This document shows positions 4,321 to 57,200 of a stretch of 64,000 bases of DNA, in pieces; position 1 is the stretch's first letter; each line of letters opens with the position of its first letter. The stretch comes from Marisa cornuarietis (Eukaryota; Mollusca; Gastropoda; Architaenioglossa; Ampullariidae): positions 7,388,501-7,452,500 of the forward strand of contig SMMW01000575.1 of the NCBI GenBank assembly GCA_004794655.1, in the 5' to 3' direction. The notes beneath the pieces are model-generated. The model saw only the letters and a list, made by a program, of their open reading frames with translations. It ran no database searches and was not told the origin of the DNA. The position numbers were made by a program, and so were the translations under genes.

Positions 4321-5753
4321 TATATTTTAAAATGTCTTCTAGACTTTTACTGATTTCTCTATGGTCCATTAGTCACATATCCAATTCCATGCACTTTGAT
4401 GAATGTTATTCAAACTCAAAGTCTATTTTGTTCTGAAGGCTTAGCAGTTTTGTATCACTAAGTATACATATTATATCCATACATACATGTGCGTATATAC
4501 GTATGTTTTCCATACTATGATAATGTCCCATCGTGCGTACTCTTATTTCTTGAGACGGTCCTATAAGATGTAACTTTTCAAGGAGTTGGAAAACACACGT
4601 GAAGTGCTTACTTTTCCATTATCATGATTGCACCTCCCCCCGCTCTCATACCGAAGCTCATTGTTCACTGGGCCATCTTCTGCTCCTTCCAGATTCTAAT
4701 GGCGCCCAGCATACTATGTTACAGGTCGTTCTCACCTGGTTTATCTCCATTGGATTAGGTCTTCTCGATGCCCTCGTCGTCAAAACCAGTGCCAGCAAAT
4801 CCAACAAATACTGCCTCTACCAAAAAACAGTCGTCGACTTCGTGTACGCCATCATCATCTTGATACTCCTGTTGTGTCTGGCTCTAAGTATCCACCTGGG
4901 GGTGATGATCAGAAATCTGCGGACCTCCTCCTTCACAGAACCACCGGGTCTCCGGAAATTGTCCACCTCCATCAAAGCCCGTGATGACATCAAGTGGAAT
5001 GATTCTCTGGTGTTAGAGCTGAAGGAGCTCAAGAGGCCAGACAGCCCGAACCTCCAGGAGCAGCAAGTCGTCCTTGGAAACCAGCCAGTTGATGCTGGTG
5101 TGGAGCCGGAAACCCCGAGGAAAGCTGAGAACCAAATCAGGTTGTCACTGGCGAGCCGTAAGTCCTCCTGTGGAGTGTTGCGACCCGGCATCGTCGCACC
5201 CCTCACGGTTCCGGAGAATGAACCCGCTGGCGAAGGAGACAACGCAGAGCAGATCAAGACTGACTATTTCCATCCCCACACCAAGGAAGCGCAGAATGGG
5301 CAAAAGGATCACTTGGCTCCCTTGACGGGTGATCTGGAAACTCCCAACTCGTCCATGGTTTCTGTGGAGGGGGCTCGTAACAAAACATTCCGATCCATTT
5401 TCCCCGTCAAGTTCAAAGGGGGCCACACTGAAGACAGCAGCAGCAATCCGGCTGTAACCAAAGGGAGATGGCCCATGCGGCCCGAACAGTCCTTGCTGCC
5501 GACGCTCCTGCGGCGGGCGACCACTTCGGGGCAGCGGGAAGTATATGGGGTCTTGGAAATAGGCTTGCTGATCCTCGTGCAAATGATCTTTGTCATGCCA
5601 AAGTCACTCAACGCCGTGCTGCTCTCTGCCGGCATCGACCAGGAGCCCAGTATCAATTTCTACATTCAGTGGCTTGTCTTCGGATCCGTCATCGTCATCG
5701 CTTGCTTATATGCCCCTAGCACTTTCTGCTGTCCTTCGCATAAGAAGAACTAG
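2455..5753 (+). CDS. Divergent class A (rhodopsin-like) GPCR-like protein, two exons
   Basis: Exons are 2455-2841 and 4725-5753. Both splice sites fall between codons (cag|gtaaac and acag|gtcgtt), giving 471 residues. The predicted order is TM1 about 14-39 with N31 at the usual Asn, TM2 51-72, TM3 82-109, TM4 122-143, TM5 166-190, a very long third cytoplasmic loop of about 200 residues, TM6 404-428, TM7 441-461. Cys82 and Cys159 could form the usual TM3-loop disulphide. Key class A residues are changed: TM2 Asp is Asn59, DRY is Trp-Asp-Arg (105-107), and TM7 lacks NPxxY. The role is presumably plasma-membrane signalling with unknown ligand. A non-canonical receptor or decayed paralogue is possible, but two long open exons argue for a live gene. 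The start is the first ATG before TM1. Confidence 0.7.
3730..3767. repeat. (TG)n microsatellite in the GPCR-like gene intron
   Basis: An uninterrupted TG run flanked by GCGT repeats and GA dinucleotides. Short open frames across it are artefacts. Confidence 0.95.
3885..4080 (+). mobile_element. Probable tRNA-derived SINE in the GPCR-like gene intron
   Basis: The sequence from about 3887 reads caccgtagtggttagtgcgc, a good RNA polymerase III A box. About 40 bases on there is ggttcaggtct, a B-box-like motif. A non-tRNA body follows. The right end and target duplication are not clear. Confidence 0.45.
4265..4318. repeat. (GAT)n trinucleotide microsatellite
   Basis: About 18 near-perfect GAT units within the intron of the first GPCR-like gene. 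Confidence 0.95.
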
Positions 5754-12241: not shown

Positions 12242-12411
12242 CAGCTACGAATTCGCAATTCATTTATAGTATATATTCTAATCAGGCTTAGCAACATACC
12301 TTAACAAAGTAATGAAATTGCTAACTACAAGTTAAATCCCTTTAATTAACAAATACAAACTGACAAATCTAACCATTTTTTTATGCGATTTATCACAAGC
12401 ATCAATTATGT

Positions 12412-12417
12412 CACGTG
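12412..12417. promoter_or_regulatory. E-box (CACGTG) upstream of NDK
   Basis: The palindrome TCACGTGA lies about 90 bases before the NDK start codon, in a C/T-rich stretch that probably contains the transcription start. This is a motif match only. Confidence 0.3.
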
Positions 12418-12503
12418 ACCTCTCACCTTACCCCCTAGCCTCGGCCTCTCCTTCAGGACGCATGGTTGCGACTCTTCTGTCCGTCTTATCCACATTCACC
12501 AAA

Positions 12504-15422
12504 ATGTCACAGAACTACGAACGAACCTTCATTGCTGTCAAACCCGACGGTGTCCAGCGAGGACTTATTGGCGAGATCGTTAAAAGATTTGAACAGCGAG
12601 GCTACAAGCTTGTTGGAGCTAAGCTGTGCGTGGTAAGTAGAATCAGCAAAATGCCGAACAGAAATGCCACCGGTTTTGTTCGCTGGTGTCGCGTTTAGAA
12701 AGCAGATGGTCGGTGTGTATCTGTGTCCACCGGACTATAGATTGAGAGGGTCGTTTGAAAGCACGCGTTTGTATATAGTTGTGACACTGGTGTTACTGTT
12801 AATAACTTACAGTTTCGATGAAGAAAATAAAATTCAGGTCTGCGTTCCACGTGGATTTCGCCTTTATCATTTTACACGACTAGCCTTTTTCATACTGTAA
12901 GACAATAATTGATTAGGGAACACTTGACGATGCTGAACGTTTTTCAAGTTTGAAACATTCTAAAAATCCTTCTACACTCCTTTATAATACTGGCTTAGTT
13001 TTTTTATTTTAAATTGTAATCAGATTTTTACGATCCTGTTTCTTGGTAAAGGTAAAGGTCAGCCACTAACCTTTTCAGGTCGTTGGGTAGCGAGGTGTTA
13101 GAGACCGCACTTTTCTCGGGGCCATTTGTTAAGGCGGTGCCCATCTCTCCCTCGCTGCCATACCTTCCCCAACCCTCTTTGGAGCCAGGTACCCATTCAC
13201 CGGCAGCTTGGTCAACTGGGGGAGTTTGCTGCGCTTATCGGGAAGTGAACCAGCGCGCTGTCGGTTCGAACACCAGTGCTCTAACCACTTGGCCATCCGC
13301 TTCCCCTGTTTCCTGTACATATTCTTGAAGCTGAAGAGTACAATGATTATATGTGCTGTAATTTATTGTATTTGTAGTAGCATGATATATCTTCACTATT
13401 ATTATTATATGGAGTAAACTGCTGTGCTGATGTAAAACAGTCACAACAAAGTCTTAACTAATCCCCATGACCAACTACTATTCCTATTGAATAGCTACAA
13501 AATTAATGCTAGATTTTTGAAGATCACTGATTGTTTGCACTCCTTTAAAAAAAGGTAGGTGTTTTGTGGAAAGCGTCATTATATGGCCCCACTGCCTGAG
13601 TCAAATCATTCCAGACATGATCATTTTGTCTTTTGTGACAAACGATTTGTGGGCAGTATGATCCGCCACCGTACTTCTGGGGCCAGTTGCACAACACATT
13701 TCTAATTTTAAACACTTTTAGGCCTTAAATCTTTTCAGAAAATCTTTTGTGACAAACGATTTGTGGGCAGTATGATCCGCCACCGTCACTTCTGGGGCCA
13801 GTTGCACAACACATTTCTTATTTTAAACACTTTTAGGCCTTAAATCTTTTCAGATAATAAGTTTAAAATGCACACCACAATTTAAGAATTTTTAAAACTA
13901 AAACTGCTTTAAGTAAGATAAAGTTGTTTAAGTCTGACTTTCCATCCTGTCAGTACAATTTTTGTGCAATGCATCTAAATGGTAGAGAAGAGATTCTGCT
14001 TCTTTAGAACAGTTTTAAGGTTTAGAAACATGTTGTGCAACTGTCCCCTGAACTCTATTTAGATAGGCCCTAATTAGTTTAAAGTGCACACCACAATTTT
14101 AGAATTTTCAAAACTAGAACTGTTTTTAGTAAGATAAAGTTGTTGGAATCTGACTTTCAGTCCTTTCAGTACAATTTTTTGTAAGTTTTAAGATTTAGAA
14201 ACATGTGCAACTGGTCTCTGGCTTCTAGATTTGCAAAGTATGCTTAACATATTTACAGAAGGGCTGACCTTGCAAAATTTTCTTAGATTTGTTGTCTGAT
14301 GAGCTCAGCAAGCATTCTATCCGGCCGTCTTGACATGGCTTCAGACAAGGCACTCGCACACAGAACATTTGCTAAACAAACCATGATAGCAGCTGTGTTT
14401 ACGTTTGGTTGTCAGCAAGGAGCCTTGTTTTATCAAGGCGTTGAAGACTTGGCTCTTTGTGCCTTAGGTAGGCAGTCTTTAAAGGAACTTGTGACGGTTC
14501 AGTGTAAAATTACATAATTTATGAAGGGCGAGAAAATGACAGGAAAATGGCTTGCTTGTTTATTCACACCATAATTTATTTGCATTGCAATGAGATATTT
14601 TATTACCATTATCAAAATGTGCAACGTTTTGGGTTTTTTTTCCCAAGCCAGGGAAGGCGCACCTCCAGAAGCACTATGAGGAGCTTAAGGATAAGCCCTT
14701 TTTCAACGGTCTCGTGGAGTATATGAACTCAGGACCCATTTTTGCCATGGTAAGATCAGAAACTATTTGCTGTTTTTTCAAGATTCCTGTCTTGAATGAT
14801 TGGAGAAATTATTTATACCAAATTGGCATATTCAATTGCACATTGTCTAGTACACTTCTTTTTTGGTTAAAAGGTGTGGGAAGGAAAAGAAGTTGTGAAG
14901 ATGGGCCGCGTCATGCTGGGTGCAACCAAACCACAAGAATCTGCACCAGGAACAATACGTGGTGACTTTGCCATTGATGTTGGACGGTATGTTAAAGGTT
15001 ATAAGGTTAATCACAGAACTCCTCCCCAGTCTGGTCTATTTACCCCTAGTTAATTGATGAAGTAGCTGCTATTAGAGCTCAGCCTTTTATCAAAAAAGAA
15101 TTTTGCATCTTTAATTCCCCATTCATGCTTTATAGTATTAAGAAAAAGTGGTTTGTTGTAGGGAGGAGTTGAGATTCGGATAGGACTATGACAGTTCTTT
15201 TAACTAGGGTGCGCAAGAAGCATGTGAGCACAAGCACTTTATGAAATTTGTATTTTCTCTATATTAGGTCCAAACTTTCTGCACCTCAGAATTTATGTTT
15301 TCAGCAACGTCTGCCATGGTAGTGACTCAGTTGCAACTGCTAAACGCGAGATTGCTTTGTGGTTTTCTGATGCTGAACTGGCCGACTACGTTGCTGTTGA
15401 AAGTCCCTGGGTTTATGAATAA
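12504..15422 (+). CDS. NME: Nucleoside diphosphate kinase (NME1/2 type)
   Basis: Exons 12504-12632, 14648-14749, 14874-14986 and 15305-15422 join in phase to 153 residues, the normal size for the cytosolic hexameric enzyme. It moves the terminal phosphate from ATP to other nucleoside diphosphates through a phospho-histidine. Visible signatures are [15 protein letters not shown] at the N-terminus, [35 protein letters not shown] and the active-site NVCHGSDSV, whose His is near residue 119, ending WVYE. An in-frame ATG at 12408 would add 32 residues, but the protein family starts at the second ATG (MSQNYERTF), so that start is chosen. Exon 2 uses an AAG acceptor. Intron 1 (2 kb) carries a SINE and a MITE. 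Confidence 0.96.
13046..13304 (-). mobile_element. tRNA-derived SINE, family A, copy 1 (in NDK intron 1)
   Basis: On the minus strand it starts with a tRNA-like head (GGATGGCCAAGTGGTTAGAG, A box) with a B-box-like GTTCGAAC close by. It ends in a GACCTTTACCTTTACC tail. It is flanked by the direct repeat CCTGTTTC (13035-13042 and 13305-13312), consistent with a target-site duplication. Another copy is at 40291-40558. Confidence 0.85.
13630..13858. repeat. Tandem duplication (about 114 bp) of the MITE left end plus its flank
   Basis: The sequence from cttttgtgacaaacgatttg through the first roughly 60 bases of the MITE occurs twice, at offset 114, nearly identical. The copied part includes DNA outside the element, so this was a duplication after insertion. 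Confidence 0.85.
13792..14050 (+). mobile_element. MITE (short non-autonomous DNA transposon), copy 1
   Basis: About 259 bases with terminal inverted repeats CTGGGGCCAGTTGCACAACA and, at the right, its near-complement ending GTTGTGCAACTGTCCCCTG. No coding capacity. Homologous copies lie at 45139-45405 (inverted) and 61796-62063. The superfamily was not assigned because no target duplication could be fixed. Confidence 0.85.
14066..14222 (+). mobile_element. Internally deleted or truncated MITE copy of the same family
   Basis: Repeats the inner and right part of the adjacent MITE (gtgcacaccacaattttaga, then a shortened right end with gtgcaactggtctctgg). It has diverged from copy 1, so the two are of different age or were partly duplicated. 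Confidence 0.75.
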
Positions 15423-19605: not shown

Positions 19606-22049
<2,444 letters not shown>

Positions 22050-22589: not shown

Positions 22590-25500
22590 ATGTTGCTAAC
22601 GTTGTTTGTAGTTTTTCCTTGTGTCACGCTTGCAGCTTACAAAGCAGACGATATGTCACTTTTCCATAAGTTCATTGATGATTTTACAAAACCTTATAAA
22701 AACGATACCAAAGAATTTTACACAAGATTTGAAATATTTAAGGTGAGATTAGGGACTACTGTACTAAGAACAGTCTATTTTCGATCAAATTTTGTCGTGA
22801 TATTTGTCTAAATAACTGTATTCTTTCACAATATAAAAACAGACGAATCGCGACATCAAAGTCTTTCGTTTCACAGCTTGACACCGCTAATCCACTATAA
22901 AACTATTGTTTTACCTTCTCTAACACACTTATAATTCCGCACTTCCTTGTTTATCCAAAACAAACTATAAGTAGTACTACACTTAAATGTCCTGTCCAGT
23001 ATTCAGGAGGATATTTCCACTTTATTTTGTACATTGCGCACTCTTCAGGATAACCTCAAACACATCCAAGAGATGAACAAGCCCTATGCGTCTTCTGTGT
23101 TTGGCATTGCTAAATTTACTGATCTTACTCAAAAAGAGTTTAAAGGTAAGAGTTTTAAATATTATCTAAAATCATTTTATTGCATAAATGTTCTGACAGA
23201 AGTAATCTGAGCACAACATCTTCAAAAAACAGGCTATCGTGTAAGAAAATGAAGAAGTCTATAATAGTATATGATGGAAATAAAAATATTAAGTCCATTA
23301 TTTCTCTTCATGTTAGTCTCTTACATCTGAAGTTATCAGGTCATAAATCAGATCCCCGGTTGTGTACATCTTTTAAGTATTTTCGTTGTTAATGAGCAAT
23401 ACTTACAGTTTGAGACATTAACTTCAACTGACATAAATGGCTAGAAAGTTACAATTAAAAATAATTATATTTGCTTTGATGTGTAATGTCAGTAGATTGT
23501 CATGTCCATTCTCCTAAGGAAAAGACCACATTTTTAATAGTTGTATTCCTTTCTCAAGATCAATCAAAGATACTGTTTTATGCTGTAGTTATCAAATATT
23601 TTCAGGAAAATTAGAATGTTAATGCAAACATGGAATGGATATACTTTGTTCACCAGGTTATTACATCTTACCTTTAGTTTTAATGGTGGACTGATTACAC
23701 ATTGTGTAGCTACATTTATGTTTGGAAGATTAAATCAATAATGTTTCTTTTGGTCTTAGAGAAATATCTGTCAGGCTTTAGAAAGATGTCCAGAACAAGC
23801 AAGCCATTGCTGTTCCATGGTTTACCAAGTAGGGGGCAAGTGCAACTACAAGATGTGCCATCAAAAATAGACTGGTAAATGATGCATGACAAGTAATATG
23901 ACTAAGTGATTTGCTATGGATATACATATACACATGGGGGTAAAGCACTATTCACAATTATCTGAGAAGTATTAATTTTATTTCATTCACTCATTAGACA
24001 AGACACAATGATGGTAACCTATTTTCAAAAATTATTTTAAAAAATCCATAATAGATAGCTGGACAAAGAAAATTTAAAAGAAATTTTTAAGTAAGCAGAA
24101 AGCAACTGTTTTTGCCTCATTCCATTCTGAAAGTGCACTTTTTGTAAATCTAAAAGAAATAAGGAATGTCTGTCATGATTTTGAAAAAGTCTTCTTTACA
24201 AAGAATTGTGAAGACTGTGTCACCCTCTTACAGTCTGTTCCTGCAGGTCACTCATCAAATAGAAATAAATTAACCTTACTCATGGTGATGAAAGCCAATA
24301 GAATATTGCATTTTGCATGCTTGCAAATGCAGAGTTGTCTTCAGTATGCACAGAGTATCATGTGCATGTTTGCCATAATATCATCCATTTTGTGATGGTT
24401 GTGTTTCTTATATTGTTGACTGTACTGTACATTGAGCTTGCCCCCACACGAGAACGAGGCTGAGCCTAACCGGCTTCACAGCTCTCGTGTTCCACATTTA
24501 TTTCTGTTATACTTGGTTGTAAGTAACTGCAGTTGATATCCAGTTTGTGCCAGTATTTTCGTCACTGACTGAGCTTTAGTTTCTGCTGTGTTTTTTGTGG
24601 TTGACCGTAGGAATCACGCAGACTTTTGTTCTTCACCAATTTTTCGGAGCAGTGCCATGTCAGCCATTACTTTTCAGCTTCAGCGTTCTGCTCAAGCTGG
24701 TCATCCTGCCCTTGATCCTGTCCAGCCTGGTGATGGCGACGGCCATGCTGGATAAGAAAGCTTTCGGCAAACTGGGGCTGGGCGCCATGATCTACTACAT
24801 GACCACAACGCTGTCACCGTCATTCTTGGCATCATTCTTGTCCTGTCCATCCATCCCGGAGACCCTACGTGACATTAACACCATTCCACGCAGTGGCGCC
24901 TCTAAGAACACCAAATCGCTGGACGCTCTGCTGGACTTGATCAGAAACTGCTTTCCGGATAATTTAATGACGATGTGTTTTCAACGGGAGACAACAGACG
25001 TTGATTCGATTAAAGCCACTACCAGAAACGTGTCCAATGGAACTGCAATGGTGGAAGTCACAGACATTATAGACTGCCAGAACTAGCGGTCACACAGATC
25101 CTGTGGATTATACTACATTCTCTGAAATACTTGCATAGCGGAGGTGACATACACAGGGGCGTGTCTCACTGGCATCCACAACTCTCTCTCCACAATCGTT
25201 ACGACTGGTGCCAGTGAACAGACTATGACTACCCCAACATGCTGTTGATTGCCTCCTGTGGCTCAATCCAGAAATTCTTGAACAGAATCTGGCTTTTATG
25301 GTGATTGTAAAACTAACGTGATGATCTTACTACAAGAATTCGGCTATGTTTCAATGATTCTAAAACTAACCCATGCAACTGCAACTGTAAGCACGTCTAT
25401 GTCATTGGTGGGTGGCCTCATAAGAAAATAATAGCAATATTTTCAGTGTGTAAGTTATCATGATCAGCCTGAAAAATAGGAAAACACTTGTCCTCGTATG

Positions 25501-33781: not shown

Positions 33782-35944
33782 ATGACTTCTCTCGTTCCGT
33801 GGATGGGTTTCCTCGTTTTTCTTATGAAAATTAAATCAGCTGCGCCGGGTAAGGCAATCTCAAAAAACTTTTCCGGTGGATGGGACAACTTTAGGAGGGC
33901 CCAGTCGGCATTGACATGATGTTATGGATGCTGTGACATATACCGAGACCGGAATGATAAAACGATCCTAATACTAACCCTAAACTAAACCCGAATCCTT
34001 ACTCAACCTTTAATTCTTCGTCTCATTTGTAAAAGATGTCATGGGGCCCACTAAAGTTGTATCTTTTTTCTATTAAAAAAACCCAAAACGCACTATGTCT
34101 CAAAAAAGTGTAGTTAATTGGCGAGGTTACTTGTATTTGGATACTTAACAAGGAACTAATCGCAGTATTCTCGTCAAGCAAAACGCTGTCGTTGTGAATT
34201 AGTACTTCATTTTTCTCATTCTTGCAGTCGGCCACTAGCAACTCATTTTCATCTCAGCACCCTCACTTATCTCTTCATCCCCCTCCCCTTGTCACTAGGT
34301 TATCAGTAACAGAGCCTCACTGATATAGTTTTAATGACACATCGGATAAAACAGAGCTCGTCAGTGACTGACAAAATATGCATCGAAAATATTTTTAAAT
34401 GTCATCAGGCAGTGGAAACCTAATCTCTTATTGAGTGGGGGCCTTAGAATCAGTGAACAGTAATTGTTTCATGGATTGTTGATTATCCTATTAATGTTCA
34501 GTAATAAAAACATTTTGTCTCAGTTCACATCCTTTGGGTGTAAACACCTCCTATAAAGTCTTGACTAAAACAAATAGCGGACAACTTCAGCACATTATAT
34601 TGAATTAGACATAAACTGTTCTTTATGTAAAATTTACCGCCCATTACTTTTTTTCACAAAGTCATTGAAGACAAAATTTATTGAGACGCGCACGTGTCTT
34701 TTTTTAAAATTTGGTTTACAGTTATCACCACGAGTGCTGACCCAATAAATTCTCATTTGTGATATAATATCAAAGGTAAATTTTGATCCATCTTGACAAG
34801 ATAGGAAGAGAGGGGTGGGGCGCAAGGCACCCAGCCCTGTAAACAGAAAAAAACAGCGTGCGGGAGACGAGAGCTGAACACAGGAGAGGCAACCCTCACT
34901 GTATTAGTGACAGGCACTAACCAGACCCTCCGACAAGATAAGAAAAACTAAATTTAGTAGACAAGCAAAAATAATATACACGATTAAAATGATTAATAAT
35001 ACTACTGGCTAGATATTATGACACGATCGATGTGGTATATATATATATATATACACTGATAATCAAGAAGATATTAAATGGTTACTTTCGTTATTGCCAA
35101 CGCATTCCTCCCATAGTTTTATTATCTATAAATTACCTGAAGACACAAGGAAGATATTTGCACACGCCTAATTCATGTACTTTTAAGAGCCGCTTAAGTT
35201 TTCTTTCTGTTCTAGACTCATTAACACAATACAGTTAGATTTTTTTATTTTTGGAAAAAGTTCTCTGTCACATATGCGTCATGTCGACTACTGCGAAAAT
35301 ATAAAAACAAATCAGTAAAAATTTGCATTGAACAGTACCATAATTTATTAGCATTATTATTGTAGCAGAGTGTTTATGAGCTTTAGCTTTGCCCATTTTA
35401 TGTAAACCGTGACGCCGCCCCACACATACTAAAAATGATATGAGATAACGGCGGAATTCTCGTGAAACTGATTTCCAAAGTCAAAATATAAACTTTTAAG
35501 ACAGAATCATGCAGGCCGTTAGTTTTGCACCACTTTAAAACGTCTCCACGGCGTCACCGTTACTTACATCTCTAAGTACTTAGCTCGGTAGTGGCTGTGG
35601 CTAATTGCTACAGTAATGGCCTAGTGGGGACTGACGCCCTTTCGTTAATCGACGAAGTCTATGACCTGTGTCTAAGTCGCAGAAATGCCAAGTTTGGAGA
35701 CAGTCGGAGACACCGGGTATTTTCTGAGTCCTGGCTACCCTCAGAAGTATCCGCCCTATCAGAACGTGGTATACAAGGCGTACCTGAGGTCACCGGGCCC
35801 CCAGTGGGTGAGAATCTACCTCAGTCTCGACCTGCAGAACAGTAGCGGTGGCTGTAATGATTACATCAGAATCAACAACGGACGGCGCTTTTGCGGCAGA
35901 GGAGAGGGTTATCACGACAGTAAGAACTGCCTGGACACGATGCG

Positions 35945-35994
<50 letters not shown>

Positions 35995-38900
35995 TGCTTC
36001 TCATGAATATAAGAACTGTCTGGACACGATGCGGCGTGCGTGCGTGAGGAGATGCTTACCATGAATATAAGAACTTTCTGGACACGATGCGGCGTGTGTG
36101 TGTGCGTGCGTGTGTGCGTGCGTGAGGAGATGCTTACCATGAATATAAGAACTGTCTGGACACGATGCGGCGTGTGTGTGGTGCTGTATGTGTGCGTGCG
36201 TGCTGAGACGCTTACCAAGAACTGTCTGGATGCACGAATGAGTGTCGCAATGTTTGTAGGGAAACATCTGTGCATACGATTGTCTGTGTGTTTATACGTA
36301 TGTCTGTGCGCTATCCGTGAATGTGCGTGCATGCGTGAAAGCACATGAGAGGTTTAGACAGGCGTGTACCTGTTAATATTTATGTTTGTGTGCACGTATG
36401 GCTGGATGTCTATCGTACCCCCCAGTACAAAGCTGGGAATCTGACCTTTCCTTTGGCTATTTTCAGTTTTTTTGGAAGGCACCGAATTTTCTCTTCTCTT
36501 CCGTTCTGACTATACCATTGAGTGGACAGGTTTCAACGTGTCATATAAAGTAATAACAGGTACGTAACTATCTACATTTTTCTTCATTTTTTTCCCCCAT
36601 GATATGGTACAGAGGGACCTTACCTCTATACTTTAGACGAATTCTAGCTACACCTCATATATGAACTATAGCTACATACTAAATATACTCTAACTATAAT
36701 TAAATACTATAGGTGATTACTAGCTACAATAGACGAATTCTAGCCAATAGTTCTATACTAAAAAATATCCTGACTATACAGAATATAGACGAACCCTTGC
36801 TGTAGACTTGAAGCAGCGCAGGATCCACTAAAACCAATGCAGACGATCACATATACAAACCACTCGGAGGTATATTCAGGCAACGATGTCACGGATAGGT
36901 GACATGGATAAAAGCACGGGAGAATGCAAAGAAGTGTAGTGAGCGTGTTGTACTGATAAAGCGGGATGCACGGGTTGGTCGTTTGTGAGTTGTAGTTTGT
37001 ATGGAAGGTTCGAGAAGGATGAATGGGGAGAATATATAGAAGGCGGTCGCCAAGTGAGGTCGATACGATAGGTGCCAAGACACCTTACGTGGAGAGGAGA
37101 AAGGCGAGACTGAACTACCCAGATAGCCAGCCATATTGAGACAACACCCCGTCGACCCCAGCGCCGACGTGAGGACTGTGCTAGTGTCTGCCGTTCTTCC
37201 CCCAGAGGAGGTACCGGCCTGAAGACAGAGAGCGGGAGAAGAGCGGGACGCCAAGAACTCTGTGCTGTGCTCCACAGAGAGAGAGAGAGAGACCATCTCC
37301 CGTGGGTACAAGCGAACACTAACCCAAGAGATTGTGTTCAGAACAGCACACAGGCGCTCGTCCATTGGGGGCGGCGCCGGCAACGAAATCGAAAGTTTGC
37401 GCAAGAGCAACATTCTGTCCTTTTGAGGGCAGCGTTCCGAGGAGTGGTGTGGTGGCTTCACCTCCTTAGGACGGAGAGAAGGACACATTTAGTTCTTCGT
37501 CCCATCACTGAACTGTGACCTGACAGGAACTGTGAGTAGAGCAGTTGTTAGTGGCTGACCGCCGCGGTTTGATGTTATATTGAGTGGAAGTATTTACTAT
37601 TTGTATTACTGTCTAGACTCTAGACTCTAGAGTAAGGGTATGAGTGTGTGATAGTGAATGTATGAGGAGGGTTGCAACTTTTTCTGAAAGAAAGCGAGAG
37701 TGTGTGTAAGAAATATGGCAATGGGGTTATTAAATGTGACGGGGTTTGCGTAGTGACCGATCGAGTTTTGTTTATTTTGGAAGGAAAGAATGCGCAAATG
37801 TCCGACTGACTGGGTGAGCGCGTGTTTGTGATCCCGTCAGTGTGTGTGTGTGTGACAAACGAGATGGCTTACCTTTTTTGTACTCAAACTCCAAAGTAGG
37901 AGCAGGAAGATTATCGCCCGGGACTATAGTGATAGCTGGACAATGGAGTTATTTGGAGTGCAAGAGTTAATAGGATTATTTAATTTTTAAAAAATGCACA
38001 GGTATGGTCGCCTACAGGGGCAACTGTCATGAAACAAAGGAAACGTTACCTCGGGGTGAGCTTTGTTCCGCAAGCGTTGCGGGGGTCCTGTTAATGGAAA
38101 CAGACGCAAATAGAAAAATCCGGCTGACAATACAGTAGTGACCTAGGAAGATAGCTTATGGGGGGAGGGGCAAACTTCATGCTAACAGTGAACGACGTTC
38201 ACATTTTTGCCTTCTCAGTATCATTTTTGAGGGGGTGGTTGCCTTCCCCTCCCTGGTTCCTGTTGTATAGTGTCTCGGTTCTGCATACAGCCCACAGTTG
38301 TGGCTACAGACGGCTAGGCAAGGCTACAGCGCTGAACATAGATAAACCCGGGGACAGAAGTGTACGTCTGCTTCGTAACTGCAGCCCCGGGAAGACTAAT
38401 CAGAGAATTTTGACACCTACCACTTTTGGCCTTAAGGATAGTCTCATCTACGTAGGGACCCAGCTTGATGTTTTCGGTCATTGACACTCTCCTTGGAATG
38501 CTTCCTTTTCAGATCAGGAAAGGGTTAAAGAGGAGGCACAAGCAATTGTCGAGGCAAGACGCAACAGCACCAACAACACTTTGCGCTTTGTAGACTATGC
38601 GTCCTTCACGGAACTCCCTTTCTACCTCACATGGCAGTTCATTTTAAGTGGGGTGGTCAACCCGCTGATCATCGTCGCAGGGCTGCTAGGAAACACCTTG
38701 ACCATCGTCGTCATGCGCAGACTTAAGTCTGAGGCGTCGTGCTACCAGGTGTACCTGATGGCGCTAGCTGTATCCGACTTGGCCGTGGTGTTGATTGAGG
38801 TCGCCTCCGACTGGCTCTCCTTCCAGTTCGGAATTGAGCTGCAGGTCACCAACGTCGTGCTGTGCAAAACCCAGCCATGGATGGTGTACAGCTTCGGGAC

Positions 38901-39642
38901 GCTGTCCTCCTGGCTGTTGGTGGCCACGACGGTGCAGCGCTCCCTGGCCGTGCTGCGACCGCTGAACGTCAACGTCATCTGCACGACCAGGCGAGCGCGT
39001 GGCCTGGTGATGTCCCTCGCTGTCGTCATCTTCGCCGCGCACAGCAACCTGATGCGCGGCTTCGACATCATCCAGCGGCAGGGCGCCTACGCCAACACGA
39101 CGACTTGCGAGATCCCCATCGCGTACGATGAGTTTTTCGCGGCTTGGAGCGTGGTCGACCTGCTCGTGTCCTCTCTGGTGCCATTCTGCCTGCTGGGCGC
39201 TAGCAACGCCGTCTTGGTGTGGACGCTGGCCAGGTCCTTGCGGCACGCCCGGCGGCAGCTGAACGCCGCACCGCAGGCTCCGCGCGGCGGCAAGAGAGCG
39301 GAGAAGGTCTCCTCTTTGTCCTTGACCCTAGTCATGCTGTCGCTAGTCTACTTCATCCTGACATCACCAGTCTGCGTGCAGCTGATGCTGGAGAACTTCA
39401 GCGAGCCGCCGACTGATCGGATTTCTATGGCCATTCACGTTGTTATTCTGGACGTATGGCGCTGTCTGTGGCGGGCCAGCTTCGCGGTGAATTTTTACCT
39501 GTACCTGCTGACCGGCTCTAAGTTCCGGAACGAGGCGTACAGTATGGTTGTCGCCTGTTCTGGGAAATGGAAGTGTGTTAAGCCCAGCGTGTCGCAGACT
39601 ACTGGGACTCGTGAAATAACTTCGAGTACATGCCATGCTTAG
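33782..39642 (+). CDS. CUB-domain class A GPCR (signal peptide + CUB + 7TM), four exons
   Basis: Exons 33782-33848, 35683-35919, 36467-36559 and 38513-39642 join through three phase-1 introns to 508 residues. Exon 1 is a secretion signal (VPWMGFLVFLM core, SAAP end). Exons 2-3 form a CUB domain, residues about 24-131: GYFLSPGYPQKYP, one Cys pair in GCNDYIRINNGRRFCG, then FSLLFRSDYTIEWTGFNVSY. The usual first Cys pair is missing. A linker with N-glycosylation sites at N150 and N153 leads to TM1 (175-199, GN motif), TM2 with LAVSDL, TM3 with a Cys and QRS in place of DRY, an ECL2 Cys (TTTCEIP), TM5 Pro, TM6 LTSP and TM7 NFYLYLLTGSKFR, as in invertebrate peptide-type receptors. The 7TM exon has no usable ATG before TM1, so upstream exons are required. 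Ligand unknown. The receptor part is certain; the fusion is inferred from phase. Confidence 0.72.
34800..34945 (-). mobile_element. SINE, family B, partial copy in CUB-GPCR intron 1
   Basis: On the minus strand it reads GTCTGGTTAGTGCCTGTCAC (A box), then GTGTTCAGCTCTCGTCTC (B box) and ACAGGGCTGGG. This is the same order as the better copy at 54785-55018. Confidence 0.55.
34946..35682. other. Rest of CUB-GPCR intron 1
   Basis: AT-rich with a short (AT)n at 35034-35053. Nothing coding recognised. Confidence 0.4.
35921..36235 (+). repeat. Compound minisatellite starting at the CUB exon splice donor
   Basis: The unit taagaactgtctggacacga plus tgcggcg and a (GT)n block, followed by gaggagatgcttaccatgaa, recurs about four times (from 35921, 36008, 36067 and 36141), with a fragment at about 36215. 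The first unit begins one base inside the donor GT. (GT)n length differs between units. Confidence 0.9.
36600..36790. repeat. Degenerate AT-rich repeats in CUB-GPCR intron 3
   Basis: Recurring tagacgaattctagc and ctatactaaa-like blocks, two or more copies each. Confidence 0.55.
36880..37960 (+). other. GC-richer block in intron 3, possible solo LTR or other repeat
   Basis: Differs in composition from its surroundings. It has a TATA-like gaatatatagaag at about 37030 followed by G/C-rich leader-like DNA and a GA run at about 37277. Long open frames on both strands lack protein features. The paired LTR, primer site and gag/pol were not found, so this is only a suggestion. Confidence 0.25.
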
Positions 39643-54200: not shown

Positions 54201-57200
54201 CGTGTCTGGTTACAGTTATCAGCAAACTCTCATGTGAAAATCTTCAGCATTCCACGGTCCTGTGTCAAATTACCTCTGGCAAGGAATGTTGTTATTAAGC
54301 GACTGACGAATTGTACACACACTGCAATGTCTTGAGTTTGGCATCCACAGGTTGTCCGCAAAAGTGTTAGACTCACAACGTTTTCTTCTACTGATGTGTC
54401 ATCTCCTAGGTGACATTGTCATCTTTACAGGCGTCCCTCTCGCCATAATATTTACCGTACCGAACAAACAATATTGATTTAGTTTAGTTAGTTTGCTCCT
54501 TTCACCTGCTTGGTCGCGCGAGGGTGGTTGGGGTGGGGAGTGAGAAATGAAACACCTGACAGGGCCCTCCATCGCATCAGTATGGGGAGGTGGGTTACTC
54601 TATAGTCTATACTATTTCGGACCAGTTTCTGCTTGTCAGCCCCTATTTCCGTCTCCTTCCAAAATGCTAGAATATTTTTGGCAAGAATCTGTTGAGGAAC
54701 GTCACGTGGTTTAATCATGGCAGCTGACTGTGGCAAGGAGTGGCTCCGAGGTATTTATTCGCTGCTCGTGTCCGGTCAAATCTTCAGGGGCCCCCGGTAG
54801 TGTAGTGGTTAAAACACTCACTTGTCACCACTGCAGTGAGCGACTCAGGGTTCAGATCTCGTCTCGGGACACTCTCTGTATGTGACACCTGTTCGCAGGG
54901 CTGGGCGGCGGGGGTTTTCTCCGGGTACTCCGGTTTCCTCCCCCCTCCCTTTCCCCCCATAGTGTGAAATCACCGCAAGGTGGAAGCACTTTCCAACTAA
55001 ATAAACAAACAACAACAAGGTCAAATCTTATCCCGACTTCTGCTGCTGGAGATTTTCTCAGTTAAGTCTTGGAGGGGTTTTTTGTATTATTATTATTATT
55101 GGTGCCACTACGTGGACAAAAGAATCATTTGGAACTATCATAGGCGTATTTATGATCTTTGGAGGTCGTCTAGGAAAGAAGTAAAATTCAAATTTGTTCG
55201 CCAATAGTTCAGCCCTGCACCTTGACACTAATCATTTAAAGGAAGCAAATATGTGGACGACAACTGTTAAAAAGAGAGAGAGGACAGGCAGAAAAGGAGA
55301 GGGAGGCAGAGACTTACTGCGCGTGGCGACGAATGGCAAGTAGAGGTCACGTGTGAGGAGAGGCTCCGGCAGGTCCCTGAAGAATTCTTTCAGTAGGGCC
55401 CCGATGTCATGTGGATTATGCTCTTCTGTCAACTGCACGTCCTGCCCAGAGTCGAACTCCTCCCTCAGCTGTTGACGCCAGACAGGACAAAGCGGGTCAA
55501 CAAACTTCACTTTACACGTTATACTCTTGGTTAGCCTAACGCTCGTAACGAAGTTTGTTTGTATGTATTACACGGGCAACTTCCACCAATCCATGCTTAC
55601 CTGTTTCACCCGCTTCTTTGATGATCCAACACGAAATATTCCTAGTACATGTAAACCTGCAAAAGATACACGATAAAAACATGCGTTTTAACTGAGTTGT
55701 GGAGGAAGCAGGAACAACTGTATGCCATCTTGTTTTTACTCCTTCAAAATTTTTTCTGACTACAGTAATGCAATACTCTCCAGAACACCATTTCTCTCTT
55801 TCTGTGTGTGTGTGTGCTTATTTTTTTTTTTTTGGGGGGGTGGGTGCGCGTGGGCGTACGTACGCGGGTGCAGTGAGAGGAACATATGTCACACTAACTT
55901 ACTGATCTAATATTATGTTGACTAGCTATGCGTCACACCGACATATATGTCACGATAATATGGTTTCTCATTTTAGCGACATGCCTAAAAGACATCATCT
56001 GCTCTTGTTCTCATTACATCACCCCGACTTCCTTAAAGGATGTAATCACGAGCACCGTGCACAGCCAGATATATATATATATATATCCACGCACAGCGCG
56101 CGCCCACACACACACACTCACACACACATACAAATATTTATAATTATATAATCGCATCACCGTGCTAACCTGGCATTTTATCAACGTAACACCTGTGTGT
56201 GGCGGATCACAGAAGACCGACTAAAAACGAAAGCAACAAGAAGAAAACAAAAGCAAGAACAAACATATAAGCAGCCGGGCTCACCGTAGGTTTCCAGGTG
56301 CTTGAAGCAGGCTTCGACAACGAGCGGAACTTGTGGCGTTGACCCCTCAGCCTGCGACCTCTCCCCCTCTGCACTCGGCATGGAGAGTGACAGAGCGTCA
56401 ATGAGACTGGAACTCGCGTTACGACCACTGTACTCGGACTCCGACAACGAGTCGGAACTCTGCGCCCTCTGTTCAACACCAACAACAGTGGGAGGTAAGT
56501 ATGGGGGGGGGGAAATTTATTTATTTATTTTTGTTATGTGACCAGCAGCTTATTTAAAGTCTACAAAACAAAGGAAACTTTGCAGACTCCCATCAGCATC
56601 CAAACACTTACAAAAACGTGATTCTCCTTCCACAACTTAGCCTCTGTCTACTATTCATAACCGGTAGATAGGAAGCTTGATAGGGAGAACTAACCCTGGC
56701 CGAGTCGTAGAGAGAGTGACGGCCGGAGGGTGTGATACTTCCGTTGTGAACACCATTGTCCAGGGACCCTTGCGACGAGCTACTGGACTTCCTGCAAAAA
56801 CACAATATTTGTCATCATTATTTTTAGGAATTTGCTTGCGTGTTTCGATCATGGAGTCCTGTACAGGGTGAATTCTCTTTGGAATCTCATACCGAACAGA
56901 CTTGCTAACTAAATCGTGAGGGCGAAGATGTTAAGGAGGCATGGAAATATAATGTGGAGGTCTCGGATGTTTACGAGTAGATACACCTATAGCTCCTTAC
57001 TATCCTTTAGTCTGCACGTCCCAACTAAGCAAATCAGTTTAATAAACGCTTAATTTTAGAGTTAGATTCACATTTTTGTCAGATACACAAGTTGCCAACA
57101 GAAATTTATAGAAAATTATTTTGTTCAGTTTTAAATAAGAAAATATCTGCATTCAAAATCAGAGTTCCACCACAGTTTAAGAGAGATCGACCAAGGCGCA

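Follow-up and report, generated by a model that had tools for sequence, protein, structure and literature searches.

A predicted class A receptor gene with an N-terminal CUB domain in the genome of Marisa cornuarietis

Adhesion receptors often carry extracellular modules, which have seldom been reported for class A receptors. A locus of the gastropod Marisa cornuarietis raises the question of whether the exon of a class A seven-helix (7TM) receptor and the exons of a CUB domain lying upstream of it on the same strand are parts of one gene. The window, i.e. the whole stretch of 64,000 nucleotides that was analysed, corresponds to C449:7388501-7452500 in an assembly of 534 Mb and 572 contigs. 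Judged from the sequence, the best reading of this locus, and in our view a probable one, is that a signal peptide, a CUB domain and a class A 7TM domain are encoded together by a single gene.

The predicted gene joins four exons of the + strand into one open frame of 508 amino acids, with GT-AG borders and every junction in phase 1. Exon 1 (33782..33848) starts with an ATG and comprises 22 codons plus one base, up to a phase 1 donor. It encodes a probable signal peptide with a hydropathy peak of 2.2, a call that rests on the ATG, the hydrophobic stretch, the donor and the phase. Intron 1 (33849..35682, phase 1) is followed by exon 2 (35683..35919), which encodes roughly the initial two thirds of the CUB domain (residues 23-101 of the joined protein, including Cys80 and Cys93). 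The phase 1 intron 2 (35920..36466) lies inside the CUB domain, the remainder of which is encoded by the 93 nt of exon 3 (36467..36559). Beyond intron 3 (36560..38512, phase 1), exon 4 (38513..39642) encodes a linker with N-glycosylation motifs, the juxtamembrane segment RFVDYASFTELPFYLT, the seven helices and the C-terminal tail, with the stop codon at 39640-39642. The N-terminus would thus measure about 175 residues, of which about 45 form the linker between the CUB and 7TM domains. As the original prediction stated, the codons split at the three junctions (G|AA, A|TT and G|AT) are completed without a stop, and the 7TM exon has no start codon before TM1 and continues in frame from a phase 1 acceptor: the first Met of its open frame (38485-39642) is residue 200 of the joined protein, within TM1. 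The signal-peptide exon proposed at the same time likewise appears probable.

When all six frames of each exon were given a codon score, trained on 10,429 codons from paralogous exons, the predicted frame came out best in all four exons. Among stop-free stretches elsewhere in the window, the score of exon 2 was reached by 2.2% of 731, that of exon 1 by 4.1% of 11451 and that of exon 3 by 10.6% of 7687, so that for the short exons 1 and 3 the codon score is only moderate evidence and no proof alone. The splice sites were ranked against the 3850 GT and 3796 AG sites of the window using a crude, home-made matrix of general-consensus frequencies. On this scale, the donors of exons 1 and 3 fell within the top 0.5% and 0.4% of GT sites, respectively, and that of exon 2 (score 1.7) within the top 4.6%. 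The acceptors of exons 3 and 4 were within the top 1.8% and 1.2% of AG sites, the latter (at 38513) scoring 5.5, and the exon 2 acceptor was ordinary (top 19%). Intron 2 also contains a tandem repeat at 35991-36221, with units of 58 and 78 bases resembling the sequence just past the exon 2 donor, and beside it a GT microsatellite at 35947-35979.

The 7TM part matches PF00001 (7tm_1) at 61.8 bits, against a cut-off of 30.5, over residues 192-436, and Srw is also matched above its cut-off (23.4 vs 22.2 bits). Its relatives of solved structure include GPR139 and the galanin 2 and CCK-A receptors. Nine residues, N193, D221, C250, C331, R275, P356, P418, N459 and Y463, are invariant in a four-row alignment; we take them to occupy the class A positions N1.50, D2.50, C3.25, C45.50, R3.50, P5.50, P6.50, N7.49 and Y7.53, respectively. 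Two whole motifs are altered in the window receptor, DRY reading VQRS and NPxxY reading NFYLY. The Pfam match above cut-off and these key residues place the 7TM part, as predicted from its sequence, in class A (rhodopsin). Pfam gave five matches at E up to 1. As these included neither GAIN/GPS nor an adhesion 7TM, an adhesion GPCR was dropped as a candidate, and so was an LGR, leucine-rich repeats being absent from them too. The origin of Srw is among the subjects treated in PMC3963977, and PMC6836662 provides further background. Elsewhere in the window, the + strand frames at 2449-2901 and 4554-5750 are maybe two intron-split halves of another seven-helix receptor; the first has an Srsx match below cut-off (E 7e-4) and the second has no Pfam match.

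Counting the 7TM exon itself, the genome has at least 109 matches to this exon (898 first-look candidates, 109 scored), the others with 30-39% identity. Many of these matches are clustered, as on contigs C1, C50 and C427, and the contig of the window holds a single 7TM match among the matches listed. The relative P0001 is 82% identical over the 7TM part only and begins within the linker; the segment RFVDYASFTELPFYLT just before TM1 is identical in it (16/16), which is notable for a receptor N-terminus. The best named protein match is from Babylonia areolata, at 32% identity. In a 33-row tree that took in part of the paralogues, the window receptor grouped with P0001 alone, the pair standing on a branch of 2.12 changes per column. 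The end branch of the window receptor was 0.048, and long branches make the exact place of the pair unsure.

The claim that the two upstream exons make up a CUB domain was borne out by Pfam. The joined CUB region alone matches PF00431 at 32.0 bits (E 1.7e-7; cut-off 21.4), and a piece of exon 2 alone reaches 19.3 bits. In the whole protein the CUB match (27.5 bits, residues 32-128) exceeds its cut-off, as does that of 7tm_1, and the Pfam check proposed for both domains therefore came out in favour of the original prediction. The best solved relatives of the window CUB include neuropilin-2 (NRP2) and ADGRG6 (6v55). CUB domains usually, and not universally, have four cysteines in two pairs, and some accepted ones, such as the first CUB of C1r/C1s/MASP, also lack the first pair. 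The window CUB has the second pair only (Cys80 and Cys93). The ligand set of calcium-binding CUB domains includes Glu, Asp and Asp; both Asp align in the window CUB and the Glu position is occupied by Gln (two of three acidic residues kept), the Glu being kept in the CUB relative on contig C446, in NRP2 and in ADGRG6. A chance CUB match was discarded in view of the E value of 1.7e-7 and of relatives elsewhere in the genome at 46, 42 and 37-41% identity.

These relatives came from a genome search with the window CUB. Of its 29 matches with E no higher than 10, two were the exons of the window itself, and the strongest among the remaining 27 lie on C446 (46% and 42%) and C322 (37-41% for the first three). 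The close relatives other than the best one on C446 are at C446:271122, 264447 and 262767 and at C322:3745137-3749675. The best C446 relative, studied in a 5-kb stretch (C446:292500-297500, L037), matches 70 residues of the first CUB exon at 46% identity (E 1.8e-13). Its CUB has an intron at the same place as intron 2 of the window, its second exon is likewise 93 nt long, its first exon has 246 nt vs 237 in the window, its first Cys pair is missing too, and all of its borders are in phase 1 as they were read. The C446 protein thus shares the two-exon phase 1 build of the window CUB, but differs in what follows: the next exon encodes a stalk rich in Ser/Thr, followed by a single hydrophobic helix (as judged by eye) and a stop, and no 7TM was found in the 5 kb when searched with the joined protein and with GPCRs. 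Since a symmetric two-exon cassette is present in two different membrane proteins, exon shuffling is favoured, and the CUB was most likely gained by shuffling of a phase 1-1 two-exon module ahead of the 7TM exon. The original prediction had read the symmetric phases as a sign of module shuffling, and the C446 gene lends support to that idea.

The window gene may possibly be the sole CUB receptor of its family. When 20 stretches of 10 kb (L009-L028) were searched for CUB exons ahead of the paralogues, with tblastn and with a CUB profile built from three sequences, only chance-level matches resulted, the profile being weak enough for a distant CUB to escape it; CUB-like matches in L026 and in L008/L017 were inspected and discarded as chance-level. 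Among the matches listed, C72 is the only contig with both 7TM and CUB-family matches, which lie about 650 kb apart. As for the 27 other CUB matches, the nearest is about 0.69 Mb from a listed 7TM match (on C72), and on C1 the distance is 2.8 Mb. The two lists give minimum numbers, and the CUB of the window is not among the CUB-family matches listed. On C63 and C492, CUB matches occur within open frames of 1370-1446 codons, in at least nine copies, unlike most other CUB exons listed. Local clusters of CUB exons are found on C467, C24 and C464; many of these exons cover the profile from position 1 to about 62, others from about 58 to 110.

Do the CUB and 7TM exons belong together? In 25 of 26 paralogous 7TM exons, the same open frame contains a Met of its own 17-75 residues before TM1, and the 26th is truncated by the edge of its stretch. 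This count covers distinct paralogous 7TM matches of at least 250 aligned residues in loci L002-L028; the window itself (L001), shorter alignments and identical copies were left out. As no Met precedes TM1 in its 7TM exon, the window receptor differs from the kin examined in needing an exon upstream. The lack of a start in the 7TM exon alone would also be seen in a decayed gene, a receptor that lost its start and lies downstream of CUB exons by chance, and stops in 4 of the 26 paralogous matches indicate that damaged copies exist in the family. Decay is nevertheless highly improbable here, as 375 codons of 7TM run without a stop or frameshift and with the best codon score of the six frames, the CUB frame is open as well, and the receptor combines its 82% identity to P0001 with a very short end branch in the tree. 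A more serious alternative, which we still regard as unlikely, consists of two adjacent genes, the first of which (exons 1-3) would encode a small secreted CUB protein and the second a receptor that starts in a separate exon. Read-through past exon 3 meets a TAA two codons on, giving a product of 134 amino acids, and a competing acceptor at 38219, which scores 7.5 vs 5.5 for that at 38513, opens an 87-codon tail ending just before the 7TM frame. The CUB protein would end at that TAA or in the 38219 extension, and on account of these two features a CUB-only product may exist, beside the fusion or replacing it. With the crude matrix, no ATG exon with a phase 1 donor scoring at least 5 was found in intron 3. 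When the threshold was dropped to the 1.7 of the exon 2 donor, two candidate start exons appeared on the + strand, at 37023-37053 (10 codons, phase 1 donor 3.9) and 38004-38055 (17 codons, phase 1 donor 3.5), and these could, in principle, start a receptor without the CUB. On the other hand, AATAAA is absent between 36560 and 38512, where two ATTAAA are present, the exon 3 donor and the 7TM acceptor both rank high and match in phase, and the CUB of the C446 relative is likewise spliced onward in phase 1, as its borders were read.

A single gene could also give rise to several isoforms. Exons 2 and 3 being jointly symmetric (phase 1-1), exon 1 can splice straight to exon 4, which would yield a receptor with a short N-terminus, and exons 1-3 could by themselves yield a decoy CUB. 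Such isoforms are allowed by the phases and the frame, and CUB-deleting splicing is mentioned for ADGRG6 in PMC6954182, but nothing in the sequence requires them and we hold them to be possible yet rather doubtful. Their existence would be compatible with the preferred reading of one gene encoding signal peptide, CUB and 7TM, so that the two estimates do not exclude each other.

The encoded protein was compared with known receptors. ADGRG6/GPR126, named in the original prediction as an adhesion receptor with a CUB, indeed has an N-terminal CUB with a calcium site, as described in PMC6954182, and, as noted above, this CUB belongs to the best solved relatives of the window CUB. However, ADGRG6 is of the adhesion type, with a GAIN and further domains, whereas Pfam finds none of these in the window protein, the helices of which match class A. 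CUB domains are also reported on adhesion receptors of amphioxus in PMC2246102, and Table 1 of the choanoflagellate survey PMC12716839 pairs Rhodopsin with LRR and LDLa only, and lists CUB as an addition to Adhesion. The earlier statement that no well-studied rhodopsin-family receptor was known to carry a CUB needs one qualification, since Nematostella LGR4 and Trichoplax LGR5 are class A receptors whose ectodomains contain CUB domains according to PMC9545775; it stands for receptors other than LGRs, no such class A receptor with a CUB having been found in the portions of the open-access literature searched. The large ectodomains of LGR4 and LGR5 further comprise leucine-rich repeats, a hinge and an LDL domain, whereas Pfam detected nothing of the sort in the window protein. 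The Aplysia AcCR candidate chemoreceptors are characterized in PMC2700072 as rhodopsin-family receptors in clustered multigene families, chiefly single-exon and with short N-termini. The 7TM paralogues of the window receptor are also clustered, a likeness in genomic arrangement, but the window gene itself departs from clustered chemoreceptors by its four exons, its CUB and its long N-terminus.

No protein combining CUB and 7TM was found in the protein database, where 12 and 13 matches, each among 7999 scored, were without a CUB, and a search with the CUB region gave no match among 321 candidates; this database is seemingly poor in spliced mollusc proteins, which makes their absence from it a weak argument. 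The window gene would be a known receptor class joined to a known module, in a build absent from the literature and protein searches made. For a class A receptor other than an LGR, an ectodomain in which one CUB is all that is recognised looks new.

A possible mechanism can be proposed. A phase 1-1 two-exon CUB module, of the kind also present in a single-helix membrane protein, would have been placed before a chemoreceptor-like 7TM exon. The CUB might then capture a secreted or surface-bound protein, or a glycan, and hold this ligand at the receptor. The conserved juxtamembrane segment could relay the signal to the helices, which may couple to a G protein via the retained R3.50 (R275). Both the ligand and the relay, including a relay or tethered role of the segment, are conjecture. 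In the adhesion receptor BAI3, the CUB is the part that contacts C1ql3. A complex of BAI3 with C1ql3 is reported in PMC12048575. With some reserve, we lean toward a non-LGR class A GPCR whose whole ectodomain is a single CUB, shuffled from a single-helix CUB family into a chemoreceptor-like lineage, and which would recognise a secreted or surface protein and not a small odorant. As this genome contains both a receptor family and a CUB family whose intron phases match, the gain of a module by class A receptors becomes directly testable, and so does the question of whether the gain of a CUB moves the ligand from a small molecule to a protein.

The other neighbours in the window are ordinary. They comprise exons of a nucleoside diphosphate kinase, a KH_2 exon (probably ribosomal protein S3), an SDF-type transporter exon and a RhoGAP exon, and these neighbouring exons lie at 12336-12695, 14594-14962, 21516-21845, 24580-25083 and 55235-55567.
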